Shown: in pieces, positions 54,212 to 61,092 of the stretch
Position numbering within the stretch: the first letter of the stretch is position 1
Layout: every line of letters begins with the position of its first letter
Assembly (NCBI GenBank): GCA_035515795.1
Contig: DATJAY010000004.1
Location: 62,001-126,000, forward strand
Origin: Candidatus Acidiferrales bacterium
GTDB lineage: Bacteria; Bacteroidota; Ignavibacteria; Kryptoniales; JAKASW01
DNA length: 64,000 nucleotides
Direction of reading: 5' to 3'
Translations under genes and position numbers: made by a program
The notes under the pieces: generated by a model
Told to the model about the DNA's origin: nothing
The model's input: only the letters and a program-made list of their open reading frames with translations
The model's database searches: none

Positions 54212-56041
54212 ATGACCGGTAAAGAACTTCTAAACATTCTTAAAGATAAGGTACTTGTGTTCGATGGTGCAACAGGTACAAGCCTGCAAAATCAGAATCT
54301 GACTTCTGCCGATTTCGGCGGCGAGAAGTACTCAGGCTGCAACGAGTATCTCAACATCGTCAAGCCAGAAGCGACTGAGAAAGTGCACCTCGGTTTCCTC
54401 GAAGCGGGCGCGGATATAATAGAGACTAACTCATTTGGTGGTACATCGATTGTCCTCGCAGAGTACGGGCTTGCGGAGGAATCGTACGAGATAAACAAGC
54501 GCTCCGCCGAGACTGCACGTAAAGCCGCAGATAAATATTCCGGCAAGGGCCAGAAAAGATATGTCGCCGGTTCGATGGGTCCGACTACAAAGCTCCCCTC
54601 GCTCGGACATATCGAGTTCGATGCGATGCGGGATTCTTATAAAGTCCAGGTGAAGGGGCTTGCCGATGGCGGAGCAGATTTATTGATCGTCGAGACTTGC
54701 CAGGATTTGCTGCAGACCAAGGCGGCGCTTGCTGCGATACAGGAATACCTGGAAGAAACGGAGCGGGACATCGCCGTCGTCGCTTCAATCACCATCGAGA
54801 CGATGGGAACGATGCTGATGGGGACGGAAATCTCCGCCGCCTTGACAACGATCGAGCCATACGATATTGTCACCGTTTTCGGAATGAACTGCGCAACCGG
54901 CCCGAAGGAAATGGAAGAAAATGTCCGCTACCTCTGCGAGAATTCTCCGAAGCCGGTTTTCGTGATGCCCAACGCCGGACTCCCGGAGAACATTGGCGGG
55001 CAGGCGTGCTACCATCTTACGCCGGATGAACTCGAATTCTGGATGAAAAGATTCGTGAATGAATTTGGCGTAAGCATGATTGGCGGATGCTGCGGCACCA
55101 CGCCCGAGCATATAGCGCGGCTCGTTAAGATTGCGTCTGAATCGAGACCGAAGAAAAGGGAGTATAATTACGCTCCATCGGTGTCTTCGATCTATTCGAG
55201 CGTAGCGCTCCATCTTGACCCGCCGCCTGTAATTGTCGGCGAGCGCTGCAACGCGAACGGCTCGAGAAAATTCAAAGAGCTGCTCCTTGCCGAAGATTAT
55301 GACGCCATGGTGCAGCTGGCGAAGGAACAAATGAAAGAGGGCGCGCACATACTCGATTTGTGTGTTGCCTATGTCGGACGGGATGAAGTCCGCGACATCA
55401 AGGAAGTAGTGAAGCGGTTCAACACGCAGGTTGCACTGCCGCTTATGATAGATTCGACGGAATACAGGGTGATAGAAGAAGCTTTGAAACGATACGCCGG
55501 AAAAGCGGTCGTCAACTCCATAAATCTTGAAGACGGCGAGGAGCGCATGCGCCATGTCCTGCCGCTTTGCAAAAGATACGGAGCCGCGGTGGTGGCGCTG
55601 ACAATCGACGAATCCGGAATGGCAAAAACCAGGGAGAAAAAATTTCAAGTGGCAAAAAGAATCCGCGATCTTGCGATCAATAAATACGGAATGCGTGAGG
55701 AGGACTTGATTTTCGACACGCTCACGTTTACTCTCGGCTCGGGCGACGAAGAATTTCGGAAGGCGGGTATTGAAACCATCGAAGCGATCAGGATGATCAA
55801 GAAAGAATTTCCGAAGGCGTACACGCTTCTCGGTGTCTCGAATGCTTCGTTTGGACTGAACGCTCACGCAAGACATGTTCTGAACTCGGTTTTCTTGCAT
55901 TATGCCATTGAGGCAGGGCTCGATTTATCAATCGTGAACGCTCAGAAGATAATGCCGCTGTACAAGATCGACGAGCGCGGGAGGGAAATTTCCCGCCAGT
56001 TGATTTTCGATGAGAGAAAATTTGAGACTGTAGAAACTTAA
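54212..56041 (+). CDS. metH: Methionine synthase MetH, N-terminal half (homocysteine and folate domains)
   Basis: A 609-residue protein covering the first two modules of cobalamin-dependent methionine synthase. The homocysteine-binding domain (1-~325) has VFDGATGTSLQNQ, VFGMNCATGP and IGGCCGTTPEHI, giving the three zinc-binding cysteines. The pterin-binding domain (~345-605) starts VIVGERCNANGSRKF and ends SIVNAQKIMPLYKI. It stops at TAA 56039-56041, and the B12 and activation domains continue in the same frame after 21 further sense codons. Either a natural two-gene split or a nonsense interruption. ATG 54212 is preferred over the longer frame from 54137 by homology. No SAM or cobalamin riboswitch was seen upstream. 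Confidence 0.9.
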   Translation: MTGKELLNILKDKVLVFDGATGTSLQNQNLTSADFGGEKYSGCNEYLNIVKPEATEKVHLGFLEAGADIIETNSFGGTSIVLAEYGLAEESYEINKRSAETARKAADKYSGKGQKRYVAGSMGPTTKLPSLGHIEFDAMRDSYKVQVKGLADGGADLLIVETCQDLLQTKAALAAIQEYLEETERDIAVVASITIETMGTMLMGTEISAALTTIEPYDIVTVFGMNCATGPKEMEENVRYLCENSPKPVFVMPNAGLPENIGGQACYHLTPDELEFWMKRFVNEFGVSMIGGCCGTTPEHIARLVKIASESRPKKREYNYAPSVSSIYSSVALHLDPPPVIVGERCNANGSRKFKELLLAEDYDAMVQLAKEQMKEGAHILDLCVAYVGRDEVRDIKEVVKRFNTQVALPLMIDSTEYRVIEEALKRYAGKAVVNSINLEDGEERMRHVLPLCKRYGAAVVALTIDESGMAKTREKKFQVAKRIRDLAINKYGMREEDLIFDTLTFTLGSGDEEFRKAGIETIEAIRMIKKEFPKAYTLLGVSNASFGLNAHARHVLNSVFLHYAIEAGLDLSIVNAQKIMPLYKIDERGREISRQLIFDERKFETVET

Positions 56042-56104
56042 TGCCGTGCAATTTCCCGGGCGCAGCTTTACTTTCTTAGCAATCAAAAATATTTGTTAGA
56101 TGTA

Positions 56105-57880
56105 ATGGCCGAACTTAAATGCACATACGATCCGCTTATCGAGCTTATGAGTTATTATGCGAATGCCAAGGCCCAGGCGAAGAGGGATGACGGAGAATCG
56201 CTTTCCTTAGAAGACAAGCTCAAGAGGCGCATCGTCGACGGTGACAGAATTGGAATCGACGATGATCTGAAACGGGCATTGGAAAAATACTCTCCTCTGC
56301 AAATCATAAACGAAATTTTGCTTGACGGTATGCGGACTGTCGGTGATCTGTTCGGAAGCGGGCAAATGCAGCTTCCGTTCGTTTTGCAGTCGGCGGAGAC
56401 GATGAAGACTGCAGTCAATTTCCTCGAACCTTTTATGGAACGCGTCGAGGGGATGCAGAAAGGCACCATGGTGCTCGCCACCGTGAAGGGCGATGTTCAT
56501 GACATCGGCAAGAACCTCGTTGATATTATTCTGACGAATAACGGATACAAAGTCATCAATCTCGGTATCAAAGTCCCGATCGAGCAAATCATCGAAGCTG
56601 CGGAAGCGAACAAGGCGGATGCGGTCGGGATGAGCGGCTTGCTCGTCAAGTCCACTGTCGTGATGAAGGAGAATCTTGAACAGATGCGGCAGCGAGGGAT
56701 AAGAATTCCGGTCGTCCTCGGCGGCGCGGCGCTGACTCGCAGGTACGTCGAGCAGGATCTACGCAAAATCTATGATGGCTACCTCTCTTATGCCAATGAT
56801 GCGTTTGATGGACTGCACTTCATGGAGGAGATTAAGTCAGGGAAAATCGACGTCGCGGAGTTAAAAGATGTCGAGACTTCATCTACCTCTCTGAACAAGT
56901 CGCTTGAACTGAACAACAAGGCAACTGCGGCGGACAAAGGAAGGGGGGCAGAACATGGACCTGAGATCCGGAATTTAATCCCGACCGGAGTTCTACAGTC
57001 GGGACGGAATTCGAGGGTTAAAAAGGATGTCCCTGTTCCGACGCCTCCATTTTACGGCAGTGCGGTCGTCAACAGCATGAAACTTGAAAAGATCTGGGAA
57101 TATTTGAACGAAGTCGCTCTCATACGCGGTCAATGGCAGTTTTCGAAAAAAGGAAAAAAGGAAGAAGAATATAATAAACTTCTCGAATCGGAAGTCTACC
57201 CTGCACTTGATGAACAAAAGCTCATTGCCAAGAGGGAGAAGCTTTTTGAGCCGAAGGTTGTCTACGGATATTTCCCGTGTCAGTCTTCAGGCGAGGATCT
57301 TGTGATCTATCGTCCGAAGGATGAAAAAGATCTTTTTACCAAATGGAAATTTAAGCAGGGCAACACAAGAGATCTGGTTGAGTGGGTGCGATTTAAGTTC
57401 CCAAGACAGAGTGATGATAGGTTTCTCTGTATATCGGATTATTTCAGATCGGTCGATTCGGGAACCTTCGACGTTATCGCGATGCAGGTTGTGACGATCG
57501 GTGCGAAGGCGAGCGAATACACGAAACATTTGTTTGAAGATGGGAGTTATCAGAATTATCTTTATCTCCATGGACTCAGTGTCGAGAGTGCAGAGGCGCT
57601 TGCCGAATACTGGCATAAGATTATAAGAACCGAACTTGGAATTCATTCTAATGACGCGACGGAAATGAAGCGGCTGTTCGCACAAGGGTATCAGGGTTCA
57701 CGCTACTCGTTCGGTTATCCGGCTTGTCCGAATCTTGAAGATCAGGCGAAACTTTTCGAGCTTCTGCATCCGGAAAGAATCGGCGTCACGCTCACGGAGG
57801 AGTTTCAACTTGTGCCCGAACAAAGCACTACCGCGATAATAGTCCACCATCCTGAAGCAAGATATTTTATTGTCAAGTAA
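56105..57880 (+). CDS. metH: Methionine synthase MetH, C-terminal half (B12-binding and activation domains)
   Basis: A 591-residue protein. The four-helix cap (residues ~10-115) is followed by the cobalamin-binding domain with GDVHDIGKN, where His132 is the lower cobalt ligand, and SGLLVKSTVVMKENLEQM and VVLGGAALTRRYV downstream. A charged linker (~225-305) leads to the SAM-dependent activation domain with YGYFPCQSSGEDLVIY and RYSFGYPACPNLEDQAKLF. Together with the preceding gene this gives a complete MetH (about 1,222 codons end to end, against 1,227 residues in E. coli). The ATG at 56105 has no ribosome binding site; an in-frame TTG at 56093 is the alternative. recN starts seven bases later. 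Confidence 0.9.
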   Translation: MAELKCTYDPLIELMSYYANAKAQAKRDDGESLSLEDKLKRRIVDGDRIGIDDDLKRALEKYSPLQIINEILLDGMRTVGDLFGSGQMQLPFVLQSAETMKTAVNFLEPFMERVEGMQKGTMVLATVKGDVHDIGKNLVDIILTNNGYKVINLGIKVPIEQIIEAAEANKADAVGMSGLLVKSTVVMKENLEQMRQRGIRIPVVLGGAALTRRYVEQDLRKIYDGYLSYANDAFDGLHFMEEIKSGKIDVAELKDVETSSTSLNKSLELNNKATAADKGRGAEHGPEIRNLIPTGVLQSGRNSRVKKDVPVPTPPFYGSAVVNSMKLEKIWEYLNEVALIRGQWQFSKKGKKEEEYNKLLESEVYPALDEQKLIAKREKLFEPKVVYGYFPCQSSGEDLVIYRPKDEKDLFTKWKFKQGNTRDLVEWVRFKFPRQSDDRFLCISDYFRSVDSGTFDVIAMQVVTIGAKASEYTKHLFEDGSYQNYLYLHGLSVESAEALAEYWHKIIRTELGIHSNDATEMKRLFAQGYQGSRYSFGYPACPNLEDQAKLFELLHPERIGVTLTEEFQLVPEQSTTAIIVHHPEARYFIVK

Positions 57881-57886
57881 ACGGCG

Positions 57887-59623
57887 ATGCTCAGAAACCT
57901 TTCAATAAAGAATTATGCCCTCATCGACGAGCTCGATCTCGAGTTCGAGACCGGCCTGAACATAATCACAGGAGAGACCGGTGCCGGGAAATCCATCATC
58001 ATCGACGCGATGAACCTAATTCTCGGCGAGCGTGCCACCTCAGAAGAAGTTCGCAGCGGGGCCGACAAAGCAATCGTCGAAGGAGTCTTCACGATTTCCG
58101 GAAATAAAAAAGTTCAACGCTTGCTCGAAGGTTGCGAGATAGAATGCGGCGACGAGATCATCATCAGGAGAGAAGTAAACCAGAAAGGACAGAGCCGTGC
58201 GTTTGCCAATGATACCCCGATTCCAATCTCGCAGCTGAAACAACTCGGCGATTTTCTCGTCGATCTCCATGGCCAGCACGAGCATCAGTCCCTCTTGCGG
58301 CCGGAAACACACATCGATCTTCTAGATGATTTCGGCGGGCTTGACAATCTCATAAAGGATTTCCGTGTATCATATCACGAATTGAATTCAGAGCTCGATG
58401 AGGTTAAAGGTCTGATCTCGAAACGGGATGCCCTCAAAGAAAAAAAAGAACTTTACGCATTCCAGATCAAAGAGATTGATGCCGTTAATCCCGTGCCTGG
58501 CGAAATGGATAAGCTCGAAGCGGAACTTAAAATCCTGGAGAATGCTGAAAAGCTTTACGAGTCGACGACGAAATTGTACGAGATCCTGTACGACAGTGAA
58601 AGCTCGATCCACGACCAGCTTGTCGTCGTCAGGAACCAGCTTGAGGATCTTTCACAGATCGATAAATCATTCGAAGCACCAAAGGAAGAGAGCGAGAGTG
58701 CGAAAGCCGTCGTCGATGAGATAACGAGGTTTGTTCAGAGTTACAGCAGCAAAATTGATTTCAACCCGCAGAGGCTGGAAGAAATCCGCGAACGCCTCGG
58801 TGTGCTCACCATGTTCAGGAAAAAATACGGAGGCTCGCTCGAGGCGGCAGTTGAATACAGGGAGAAAATCGGAAAAGAATTCGCACTGGCGGAAAACTTT
58901 GATGAGGAAATTCAAAAGCTGGAGTCGAAGGTCGAATTTGCACGGGCAAAGGTTTCCGAAATTGCAGAACGGCTTTCCACGAAACGGCGTGAGGTCGCAG
59001 ATCGTATAACGAAAAGTATCGTAGGGGTACTGGCCGAAATCGGAATCGAGAAAGCGAAATTTGATGTTGAGATCGCAAACAGGGAATATCATGGCGGTGA
59101 AGCAGCGTTGGCTGCAGATGCAGTTTGCGACAAGCCTTTTGCGAAGCTCGGGAGAGATTATTACGAAACGACGGATAAAGGTTTTGATATCGTCGAGTTT
59201 TTCGTATCCACAAATGTCGGAGAAGAGCCGCGCCCGCTTGCGAAGGTGGCATCAGGAGGAGAGATCTCTCGGATAATGCTCGCATTAAAGACGATTCTCG
59301 CAAAGAGCGACCGGCTTCCGCTTCTGGTTTTCGATGAGATCGATACCGGCATCAGCGGAAGGATCGCAGCGAAGGTCGGAAGAAGTTTGAAGAACCTCTC
59401 AGGATTTCACCAGATAATTACCATCACTCATCTTCCTCAGATCGCCGGAATGGCCGACGTCCATTTCAGGGTAGAAAAAATCGTGAAGGGAAAACGTGCA
59501 GTTACGCGGGTGAGCAAACTGTCCGACGAGGATCGGGTGCTCGAAGTGGCGAAACTCCTCAGCGGCGATGACGTTACGCAGGCAAGCATATCTGGGGCGA
59601 AAGAATTGATCGGGATGAAATGA
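57887..59623 (+). CDS. recN: DNA repair protein RecN
   Basis: A 578-residue SMC-like ATPase for double-strand break repair. Walker A is ITGETGAGKSIIIDAM (residues ~28-43), followed by the RecN-typical LVDLHGQHEHQSLL near 122. A central coiled coil spans ~150-390, and the C-terminal half has the ABC signature VASGGEISRIMLALK, Walker B LLVFDEIDTGISG and the H-loop ITITHLPQIAG. Length is slightly above the E. coli protein. The stop overlaps the cysS start by four bases (ATGA), so recN and cysS are coupled. Confidence 0.96.
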   Translation: MLRNLSIKNYALIDELDLEFETGLNIITGETGAGKSIIIDAMNLILGERATSEEVRSGADKAIVEGVFTISGNKKVQRLLEGCEIECGDEIIIRREVNQKGQSRAFANDTPIPISQLKQLGDFLVDLHGQHEHQSLLRPETHIDLLDDFGGLDNLIKDFRVSYHELNSELDEVKGLISKRDALKEKKELYAFQIKEIDAVNPVPGEMDKLEAELKILENAEKLYESTTKLYEILYDSESSIHDQLVVVRNQLEDLSQIDKSFEAPKEESESAKAVVDEITRFVQSYSSKIDFNPQRLEEIRERLGVLTMFRKKYGGSLEAAVEYREKIGKEFALAENFDEEIQKLESKVEFARAKVSEIAERLSTKRREVADRITKSIVGVLAEIGIEKAKFDVEIANREYHGGEAALAADAVCDKPFAKLGRDYYETTDKGFDIVEFFVSTNVGEEPRPLAKVASGGEISRIMLALKTILAKSDRLPLLVFDEIDTGISGRIAAKVGRSLKNLSGFHQIITITHLPQIAGMADVHFRVEKIVKGKRAVTRVSKLSDEDRVLEVAKLLSGDDVTQASISGAKELIGMK

Positions 59624-61092
59624 CTACTGATATTTATCTCTACAACACTCTCACTCGGCAAAAAGAAAAATTTGTCCCCCTTGAAAAAGACAGGGTCGGA
59701 ATTTATGTGTGCGGGCCGACGGTATATAACGACTCGCATATCGGTCACGCTAAGAGCTATGTTTCCTTCGATGTAATAGTGCGATTTCTACGATTCCTCG
59801 GTTACAAAGTCACCTACGTGCAGAACATCACTGATGTCGGCCACCTCACCGATAATGCTGATGAAGGCGACGACAAGATCGAAAAAGTCGCCAAGAAGGA
59901 TCGGATAGACCCGATGGAAATTGTGGAGACGTTCATGCGGAGCTATTTTGAAGACATGGACAGGCTTGGCGTCGAAAGACCGAACATTTCTCCGAGGGCG
60001 ACGGGACATATCGTGGAACAGATTGAAATGGCAAAAGTTCTGATCGAAAAAGGATGCGCGTACGAAGCCGGCGGCAACGTGTATTTCGATATTACAAAAT
60101 TTCCGAGCTATGGAAAACTTTCCGGGAAGAAACTTGAAGATCTTGTTTCCGGGACGCGGGTAGAGCTGAGGAGCGACAAGAGGAATCCTTCCGATTTTGC
60201 CTTGTGGAAAAGGGCTGAGACCGGCCATATCATGAGCTGGCCCTCGCCGTGGGGCGACGGCTTCCCCGGCTGGCATCTTGAGTGCTCCGCGATGAGCATG
60301 AAATACCTCGGCGAGACTTTCGATATTCACGGAGGTGGAATTGACAACCAGTTCCCGCACCACGAGTGCGAAATAGCACAGAGTGAATCTGTCACCGGGA
60401 AACAATTCGTACGGTATTGGCTTCATAATAATTTGGTGACTGTGAACGGGATGAAGATGAGCAAGTCTCTCGGAAATTCTGTTATGTTGAAGGACGCGTT
60501 TAAAAAATACGATCCGGTTGTTCTGAGATTTTTTATTCTTCAGAGCCACTATCGAAGTCCGCTTGATTATTCGGATGAAGCCGTTGCAGCTGCAGGCAAG
60601 GGACTTGAACGACTGACAAACGTGGTACGGCAGCTCAAGGAAGCAATCGCGGAAAGCAGGATGCCGCTGGATTTGAACAACCTTCCGGAAGAGCCGGTAA
60701 ACATGAAGCGATATTATAATGAGTGGCTTGCCGCGATGGCAGATGATTTTAATACACCTTTAGCGATCGCTTCACTGTTTGAAATGCTGAAGGATGTAAA
60801 CTCGTTCCTGGCATCGGGGAACAGGCCAAACGAAGAATTTGCAGGAACGCTGCTATCATTCCTAAATGAACTTGCCGGCGGCGTGCTTGGAATTTTATCC
60901 CCCGAAAGTCAAAGAACTCACGATGTGGAATTAGAAGAAAAGTTGATTGAAACGTTGATTAATCTTCGTGCCGATGCGAGAAAGGACAGGAATTTCAAAT
61001 TGTCTGATACCATCAGAAACGAATTGCAGAAGATCGGTGTGGTTCTCGAGGATAAGAAGGACGGTACGACAATTTATAAAGTTCAGAAATGA
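59620..61092 (+). CDS. cysS: Cysteinyl-tRNA synthetase
   Basis: A 490-residue class I synthetase. CGPTVYNDSHIGHAKSYVSFD holds the HIGH-type motif and the first zinc Cys (Cys28 region). The zinc site continues with GWHLECSAMSMKYLG and FPHHECEIAQSE, KMSKS is MKMSKSLGNS near residue 277, and the DALR-type helical C-terminus follows. All active-site features are intact. It overlaps recN upstream and a 59-residue ORF downstream. Confidence 0.97.
   Translation: MTTDIYLYNTLTRQKEKFVPLEKDRVGIYVCGPTVYNDSHIGHAKSYVSFDVIVRFLRFLGYKVTYVQNITDVGHLTDNADEGDDKIEKVAKKDRIDPMEIVETFMRSYFEDMDRLGVERPNISPRATGHIVEQIEMAKVLIEKGCAYEAGGNVYFDITKFPSYGKLSGKKLEDLVSGTRVELRSDKRNPSDFALWKRAETGHIMSWPSPWGDGFPGWHLECSAMSMKYLGETFDIHGGGIDNQFPHHECEIAQSESVTGKQFVRYWLHNNLVTVNGMKMSKSLGNSVMLKDAFKKYDPVVLRFFILQSHYRSPLDYSDEAVAAAGKGLERLTNVVRQLKEAIAESRMPLDLNNLPEEPVNMKRYYNEWLAAMADDFNTPLAIASLFEMLKDVNSFLASGNRPNEEFAGTLLSFLNELAGGVLGILSPESQRTHDVELEEKLIETLINLRADARKDRNFKLSDTIRNELQKIGVVLEDKKDGTTIYKVQK

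Follow-up and report, generated by a model that had tools for sequence, protein, structure and literature searches.

The Question Raised by the Locus

Methionine synthase (MetH) is a textbook single-chain enzyme whose domains have to swing over each other. In the window, by which the whole analysed stretch of 64,000 nucleotides is meant, a TAA codon at 56039–56041 divides two halves of MetH that have one frame in common. The locus raises the question of whether this stop marks a damaged gene, a signal that is read through, or the boundary between two genuine subunits. The matter reaches beyond a single genome. If MetH can occur naturally in two pieces, cut repeatedly at one domain-dividing spot, then the enzyme can do without its covalent link, and the cut points to an element that may substitute for it. 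Natural halves also let loading, docking, and reactivation be studied apart.

54212–56041, + strand: metH N-half gene, 609 aa, with the homocysteine (Hcy) domain and most of the folate (Fol) domain, C-terminal end ...DERKFETVET followed by the stop; assigned by Pfam and NCBIfam matches
56042–56104, + strand: spacer of 63 nt, in frame and open, 21 codons running into the ATG at 56105
56105–57880, + strand: metH C-half gene, 591 aa, with the last Fol strand-helix, Linker II, and the Cap, Cob, and Act domains

Two Genes for Five Modules

Across the joint, 609 codons, the stop, 21 spacer codons, and 591 further codons add up to 1222, which confirms an earlier note on this DNA that had described in-frame MetH halves of about 1,222 codons separated by this TAA. 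The N half matches the Pfam families for Hcy methyltransferase (PF02574, E 1.2e-82) and pterin binding (PF00809, E 1.6e-45) and contains two motifs, GMNCATG (residue 224) and GGCCGT (residue 291), the cysteines of which are presumably the zinc ligands of the Hcy domain. The cap (PF02607), B12-binding (PF02310), and activation (PF02965, E 1.2e-39) families are found in the C half, together with GDVHDIGKN at residue 129, an instance of the cobalamin motif DxHxxG, and YQGSRYSFGYPACP at residue 529. The N-half start ATG aligns with the starts in congeners and is preceded by a 5-of-6 Shine–Dalgarno match. Each half misses the single-chain metH cut-off of TIGR02082 (740.8 and 594.5 versus 1010.85 bits), as a half must, so the pair is a split MetH rather than a standard single-chain one.

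The best solved matches by sequence are the Thermus MetH structures 8ssc and 8g3h. The fused Thermus enzyme (TIGR02082) shares all five modules and their order with the window's pair, and its catalytic motifs are present in the window too; however, it is one chain, whereas the window encodes two polypeptides, cut at the position of Thermus residues 632|634. The product of gene 1 would comprise the homocysteine barrel and nearly the whole folate barrel, and the product of gene 2 the remainder.

The Split in Congeners and in the Class

Two adjacent metH genes cut at the same point are present in all 12 congeners searched, and a fused metH in none of them (0/12). The earlier note had proposed looking for relatives that all have two genes with diverged spacers, and the 12 congeners searched turned out that way. 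The C half differs from that of 10 of the 12 congeners by 0.14–0.22, 0.12–0.15, and 0.55–0.60 at codon positions 1, 2, and 3, respectively; the corresponding values for the N half, compared with 5 of the 12, are 0.11–0.14, 0.07–0.09, and 0.53–0.56. This codon-position pattern indicates purifying selection on both halves.

Among 149 genomes of the class that were searched, 75 have a half of this type of MetH: 16 fused, 16 split with adjacent genes, 39 split with the genes apart, and 4 partial. Both halves lie on one contig in 6 of the 39, and 3 of these 6 are single-contig genomes. In the class genome G024 and in the Chlorobiota genome of locus L062, the C half was found and the N half was not; genomes G067, G103, and G128 are partial. 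A Terriglobia locus (L119) that was considered as an adjacent split has overlapping ORFs and so looks instead like a fused gene whose frame is broken.

Both halves are intact and conserved, and the cut is at one fixed point throughout the genus and related families, for adjacent and distant genes alike. It is highly probable that they encode a cobalamin-dependent methionine synthase that is naturally made of two subunits and has been so for a long time. For annotation, half-length “MetH” genes in this class, adjacent or distant, should not be taken for broken genes.

Split methionine synthases are already known; the break inside the folate domain appears to be the new part. In Burkholderia phytofirmans, the B12-dependent MetH is likewise described as two natural genes, with the Hcy domain alone separate (PMC7311316, consulted in part), whereas the window keeps Hcy with Fol. 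Bacteroides thetaiotaomicron also has two natural genes, where, in the same portion of that source, only the reactivation domain is separate; in the window, the second protein combines Act with Cap and Cob. The MetH of Phaeobacter inhibens, again in separate genes, has three parts rather than two, with cuts between Hcy, Fol, and Cap:Cob, and according to PMC5764234, it has no PF02965, reactivation is carried out by unrelated proteins, and the bacterium needs every one of the MetH parts to grow in defined media that lack methionine. The break in the window fits none of these earlier types (Hcy and rest; rest and Act; three parts). Almost the same Hcy:Fol and Cap:Cob:Act division has been made in laboratory halves (4ccz and 3bol; 1k7y and 3bul), as given in parts of PMC10567725 and PMC13376404. 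No MetH split within the folate domain was found in the literature consulted, and the position of the Sphingomonas koreensis break is not stated in the available sections of PMC7857596.

Origins of the Split

The split clade has a support of 100/99 in the tree. A single origin of all splits is ruled out within the class, as all class split rows forming one clade is rejected (p-AU 0.0005), and the fewest fused/split changes on the tree number two, which, on the sequences sampled and if the changes are read as fissions and not as re-fusions, implies at least two fissions within the class. A third fission, in Armatimonadota, is likely; grouping Fimbriimonadales with the main split clade is rejected only marginally (p-AU 0.0445, with a long-branch warning). 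Rows were omitted from the trees for speed, the figures being 71 rows for one tree, 52 for the trees behind the split-clade support and the clade tests within the class, and 59 for the Fimbriimonadales test. The incomplete pairs G128 and G046 were left out of all trees, and G031 was also left out of the Fimbriimonadales tree.

The genes downstream bear on the history of the pair in the window's family (f1).

57887–59623, + strand: RecN-like gene directly downstream of the C half, also downstream in the 5 other f1 loci compared
59620–61092, + strand: cysS, cysteinyl-tRNA synthetase, context

The f1 genes may have been rejoined after an ancestral unlinking instead of having been adjacent ever since fission, a course that we regard as conceivable but the less probable one. 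The f1 pair is nested in a clade in which the halves are separated in every other family sampled, and its neighbourhood (recN, cysS) is unlike that of the fused genes compared. Gene order is, however, quick to decay, and the tree test does not reject (p-AU 0.318) a single clade of all unlinked rows, in which f1 could have kept its original adjacency; re-linking from unlinked halves is to that extent not demonstrated.

A Break inside the Folate Domain

A break in the flexible linker was the first assumption and was dropped once Linker II had been mapped on alignments to Thermus residues 649–657, further on than the break. As judged from alignments and models, the break interrupts a folate-domain loop and precedes the Fol:Cap linker by about 15 residues. 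The joint had been described as unlike conserved MetH linker, which holds for the 63-nt spacer; the break itself, however, is not in the Fol:Cap linker. With the break upstream of that linker, the C protein starts with a conserved strand-helix, YDPL, which in the crystallised folate domain is the completing element.

56117–56158, + strand: KCTYDPLIELMSYY, proposed docking element of the C subunit on the N subunit; in fused MetH and in the crystallised protein, this segment completes the Fol domain

The excised Fol construct 5von (residues 367–648) has this strand-helix on the folate side, whereas the window encodes it on the other protein. When the window's sequence was read through its stop and modelled, the result matched this crystal structure over 282/282 residues at 1.2 Å. 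In the window model, the strand and helix blocks have pLDDT values of 86 and 94 and the preceding spacer 54–58; in the model of a fused relative (L063), the blocks reach 93 and 96, going down to 78 at the end of the helix. The strand ahead of the cut is only two residues long in the window model, and strand pairing across the cut was read from secondary structure only. In split C halves (29 rows), the Y of YDPL is conserved at 0.97 and D, P, and L at 1.0. The YDPL segment is conserved in split proteins and the linker behind it is not, in a comparison where the fused rows are more diverse than the split rows. All of the split lineages inspected have the same break loop, and none of them is broken in Linker II.

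From the structure, we infer that the C subunit bears the last strand and helix of the folate domain (KCxYDPLxELMxYY). This element would dock on the N subunit and keep the halves together, and Linker II behind the dock would, as it does in the fused enzyme, still allow Cap:Cob to swing among the Hcy, Fol, and Act sites. Docking is somewhat probable on the basis of AlphaFold models, which are single-chain ones built with fused relatives and not two-chain ones. The broader proposal, in which recurrent fission at one folate-domain hairpin loop gave a two-subunit enzyme held by strand-helix complementation through the first ~15–20 residues of the C subunit, is one towards which we incline slightly. 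If complementation is true, the covalent tether assumed for the swings of MetH would have given way to a non-covalent tether, which might even be open to regulation.

Alternatively, the YDPL segment might be a mere leftover, with the halves meeting through transient encounters of Cob with Hcy:Fol and no dock. Cob contacts with Hcy:Fol and Act are called transient in the part of PMC10567725 that was available, and human MTR halves appeared as separate particles despite their covalent link, according to a portion of PMC13376404. Such an arrangement nevertheless seems unlikely, given the retention of the segment but not of the following linker, the lack of any inspected lineage broken in the disordered Linker II, and the models, which place the segment in the Fol core.

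The Stop, the Shared Frame and the Spacer

Gene 2 is in a different frame in 11 of the 12 congeners, and the twelfth has a further stop between the halves. Counting the window, the halves have a common frame at 2 of 13 joints and an open stretch at the window's alone, so conservation does not extend to the shared open frame. By chance, a common frame with 21 open codons is expected at 0.27 × 1/3 = 0.09 when the spacer is shuffled and at 0.48 × 1/3 = 0.16 when 63-mers are drawn at random from the window; the 12% given previously was a fair figure. The open, in-frame 63-nt spacer is a local accident, open by chance. The C-half start ATG corresponds to the gene start in all 12 congeners and is alike at the 13 joints.

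A single gene with programmed readthrough of the TAA at 56039, giving a 134-kDa MetH, would agree with a spacer frame that is open throughout, but it is exceedingly improbable with these congener frames, with the C protein having its own start, and with the separation of the two genes in 39 of the 75 genomes of the class that have either half; as a conserved mechanism, it is refuted by the absence of a shared open frame across the stop in 12/12 congeners. Hardly any weight can be given to a fused gene with a recent nonsense mutation (or a pseudogene) or a sequencing or assembly error, which has nothing for it beyond the lone stop in a common frame, while the stop is at about the same aligned place in the 12 congener genomes, nothing corresponds to the 21-codon spacer in the three fused class members compared, and the congener frames, the starts, and the selection on each half indicated by the codon positions all oppose it. 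Both options came from the earlier note and neither is supported, with 12/12 congeners split alike. Its further option, a natural split with translational coupling, stands as regards the split; for coupling, the window's own joint gives a less clear picture.

56039–56043, + strand: TAATG, the N-gene stop overlapping an ATG; from the sequence and congener joints

The N-half and C-half genes are probably co-transcribed. A TGATG overlap is present at the joint in 7 of the 12 congeners, and in most congeners, gene 2 would be translated through termination-reinitiation there. In the window's species, this overlap would have been displaced by the 63-nt spacer, and TAATG may be its relic; its ATG opens a 12-codon ORF only, which ends at TAG 56077–56079. 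Coupling is not evident there and is less clear than in the relatives, because a spacer with no visible Shine–Dalgarno sequence ahead of the C-half gene replaces the overlap. An inserted repeat was ruled out as the source of the spacer, as no second copy was found in the genome (next matches at E 0.5 and 0.9).

Methionine Synthesis in the Genome

The genome encodes MTHFR and has no match to the MetE catalytic domain PF01717. As far as gene content can tell, this fits methyl transfer from CH3-THF to homocysteine by the split MetH. A 630-aa protein in the genome looks like an Hcy methyltransferase plus MTHFR, and the split MetH may perhaps not be the sole route.

Two genes at the joint

From the sequence comparisons, we conclude that the MetH (cobalamin-dependent methionine synthase) of the window would be a two-subunit enzyme, encoded by two adjacent genes:

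54212-56038, + strand: metH N half, 609 aa, followed by its stop TAA at 56039-56041
56105 (start ATG) to 57880 (with stop), + strand: metH C half, 591 aa

The N half carries the Hcy methyltransferase and pterin-binding domains, and the C half carries the cap, B12 and activation domains (Pfam). On the NCBIfam metH profile they match positions 2-613 and 612-1182, respectively, so that together they cover the model end to end. As the earlier note had observed, the TAA is followed by 21 open codons that lead in the same frame into the C half; the chance of such an arrangement, put there at about 12%, was recomputed at roughly 9-16%. A Shine-Dalgarno sequence is present before the N-half gene and absent before the C-half ATG. 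The TAATG at the N-gene stop opens a 12-codon ORF and looks like an old stop/start overlap that was followed by an addition of about 64 nt. A genome search found no second copy of the 63-nt spacer elsewhere in the window's genome.

Each half was searched against the same set of 61 genomes, which holds 12 congeners (close relatives). The check proposed in the earlier note, namely whether relatives carry two separate genes, was thereby run and came out so: both halves are adjacent and in unchanged order in 12 of 12 congeners. Thirteen joints were read, the window's included. Seven congeners have a TGATG stop/start overlap, one has an ATGA overlap, two have short spacers (2 and 5 nt) and two have long spacers of about 140-144 nt, as against 63 nt in the window. 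The C gene is out of frame with the N gene in 11 of the 12, the twelfth has an extra stop between them, and the C protein starts as M-x-x-x-[KR]-C-x-YDPL at all 13 joints. A readthrough product as the conserved form is thus ruled out, and the shared open frame in the window is, on these joints, an accident.

Position of the cut and a possible docking mode

In the alignment to Thermus MetH (8g3h numbering), N-half residue 603 corresponds to 632 and C-half residue 8 to 634. Linker II, which joins Fol and Cap, is placed at Lys649-Asp657 in the accessible text of PMC10567725; the residue numbering was checked by hand on the His761 and the deltaN35 construct described there. By alignment, the cut is therefore located approximately 15 residues before Linker II, inside the folate module. 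The folate domain excised for crystals (5von) reaches over the equivalent of YDPLxELMxYY. One AlphaFold model covers the folate domain plus joint in a fused relative (L063); a second covers the window's stretch as a hypothetical chain read through the stop. In the L063 model, the YDPL segment forms a strand (290-293) and a helix (295-303) in blocks of pLDDT 93 and 96, with 78 where the helix ends; a short strand (281-283) lies directly before the cut, and the linker behind drops to pLDDT 53. In the window model, the folate core is mostly at pLDDT 93-98 and the spacer at 54-58, the C protein contributes a strand (315-317) and a helix (319-326) with blocks of 86 and 94, and the strand before the cut is just two residues long. 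This model matches 5von residues 367-648 at 282 of 282 positions (1.2 A), and the L063 model matches likewise.

The folate domain's final strand and helix are kept on the C subunit. Given the split, these models incline us modestly towards the view that the C subunit uses them to dock on the N subunit. Linker II, which is flexible and follows this dock, would then allow Cap:Cob to reach the Hcy, Fol and Act domains in the way it does in single-chain MetH.

In the accessible text of the published work, MetH occurs in two parts in Burkholderia, with Hcy separate, and in Bacteroides, with the activation domain separate (PMC7311316), in two parts in Sphingomonas (PMC7857596) and in three in Phaeobacter (PMC5764234). 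The GapMind authors judged such splits genuine as they were common to related genomes (PMC7311316), and the window's split was judged in the same way, by its presence in related genomes. The division of MetH into two or three parts is already known. No split at the folate-domain loop was found in the accessible portions of the open-access literature, and the break at this loop appears to be a new variant.

Apparently working genes and methionine synthesis

Differences at codon positions 1, 2 and 3 were 0.14-0.22, 0.12-0.15 and 0.55-0.60 for the C half against 10 of the 12 congeners, and 0.11-0.14, 0.07-0.09 and 0.53-0.56 for the N half against five. Catalytic motifs are present in both halves. 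N and C look like working genes. The MetE catalytic domain (PF01717) was not found in the window's genome, which has one MTHFR, so the split MetH is likely its methionine synthase. The MTHFR found at G000:C35:383377-384159 (L061) belongs to a 630-aa ORF that may be of the bifunctional YitJ type. By eye, its N-terminal part resembles homocysteine S-methyltransferase, and this protein may therefore provide a second methionine route.

Elsewhere in the window's order, a search of family f2 (G013-G019) at 1e-60 found no N half, and the C half drew nothing beyond weak B12-domain matches there. A corrinoid-protein-like stretch (G011:C17:42087-42836) contains two TGA and one TAG and is perhaps a decayed gene.

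Distribution of fused and split MetH

The comparison covered 149 genomes of the class, sampled evenly from a larger group, with cut-offs of 1e-90 (C) and 1e-170 (N). At least one MetH half was found in 75 of them.

Arrangement of MetH in 75 class genomes, by family (f1 is the window's)
Fused: 16/75; f4, f17, f18, f22
Split, adjacent: 16/75; f1, f13
Split, apart: 39/75; f3, f5, f7, f11, f12, f16, f20
One half only or incomplete: 4/75; genomes G024, G067, G103, G128

In 33 of the 39 split-apart genomes the halves are on different contigs, where their distance is not readable. In the other six they lie apart on one contig, and three of these genomes (G044, G048, G145) consist of a single contig, so that the separation there is not due to assembly gaps. 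G024, rated 99% complete, has a C half (C60:1724-3424), and its N half was not found. C halves of 766-877 aa open frame (G041:C26:108902-111226, others of f5, and G065 and G085 of f11) have an apparent long Cob-Act insert.

At least 594 stretches matched in a wider collection of bacteria. Of the best 80, 76 were fused; further splits may have been missed by keeping these 80. The four non-fused loci are one Chlorobiota MAG C half, two Fimbriimonadales C halves and one from Terriglobia. N halves are present on other contigs in both Fimbriimonadales genomes. The Chlorobiota C half (L062, MAG J074), which has a start of its own, lies close to the end of a contig, and no N half was found in that genome. 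The Terriglobia locus (L119:1-3164) has two overlapping frames, which probably reflect a frame break or sequence error rather than a split MetH.

History of the fissions and the common break loop

The N and C alignments were joined (52 rows, 1147 columns) for a maximum-likelihood tree. In it, f13 sits among the fused families and all other split rows form one clade (100/99). A single clade of all split rows in the class was rejected (p-AU 0.0005), and the minimum number of fused/split changes is two, which by parsimony suggests at least two fissions. The upstream gene is common to both f13 loci compared and four fused loci, and at one of the two (G031) several downstream genes are also common to fused loci, which is what a fission in situ would leave. 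At both f13 joints read (G031, G040) the C start overlaps the N stop by four bases. In f1, recN and cysS lie downstream of the split metH in 6 of 6 loci compared. The f1 halves might have been brought together again after separation rather than staying adjacent throughout; against this, all unlinked rows as one clade were not rejected (p-AU 0.318). Fimbriimonadales probably underwent a third fission, though its separateness from the main split is only marginal (p-AU 0.0445, long branches).

Every N tail inspected from f1, f3, f5, f7, f11, f12, f13, f16 and Fimbriimonadales ends soon after an R-x-[FWY] strand (e.g., DERKFETVET, DRREFAEA), and every C protein inspected from the same groups and the Chlorobiota MAG starts some 6-15 residues before [YF]DPL. 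Judged from these ends, the same loop is broken in the split lineages listed here. Across 29 split rows, made up of the window and 28 from families other than f1, the conservation of Y, D, P and L is 0.97, 1.0, 1.0 and 1.0, respectively, whereas the approximately 15 linker positions that follow are variable; the fused comparison, a more diverse set (30 rows and the window), gave 0.65, 0.94, 1.0 and 1.0. In a fused MetH from Chloracidobacterium (L065:3059-4126), the break loop holds approximately 30 inserted residues, which indicates that this loop tolerates change.
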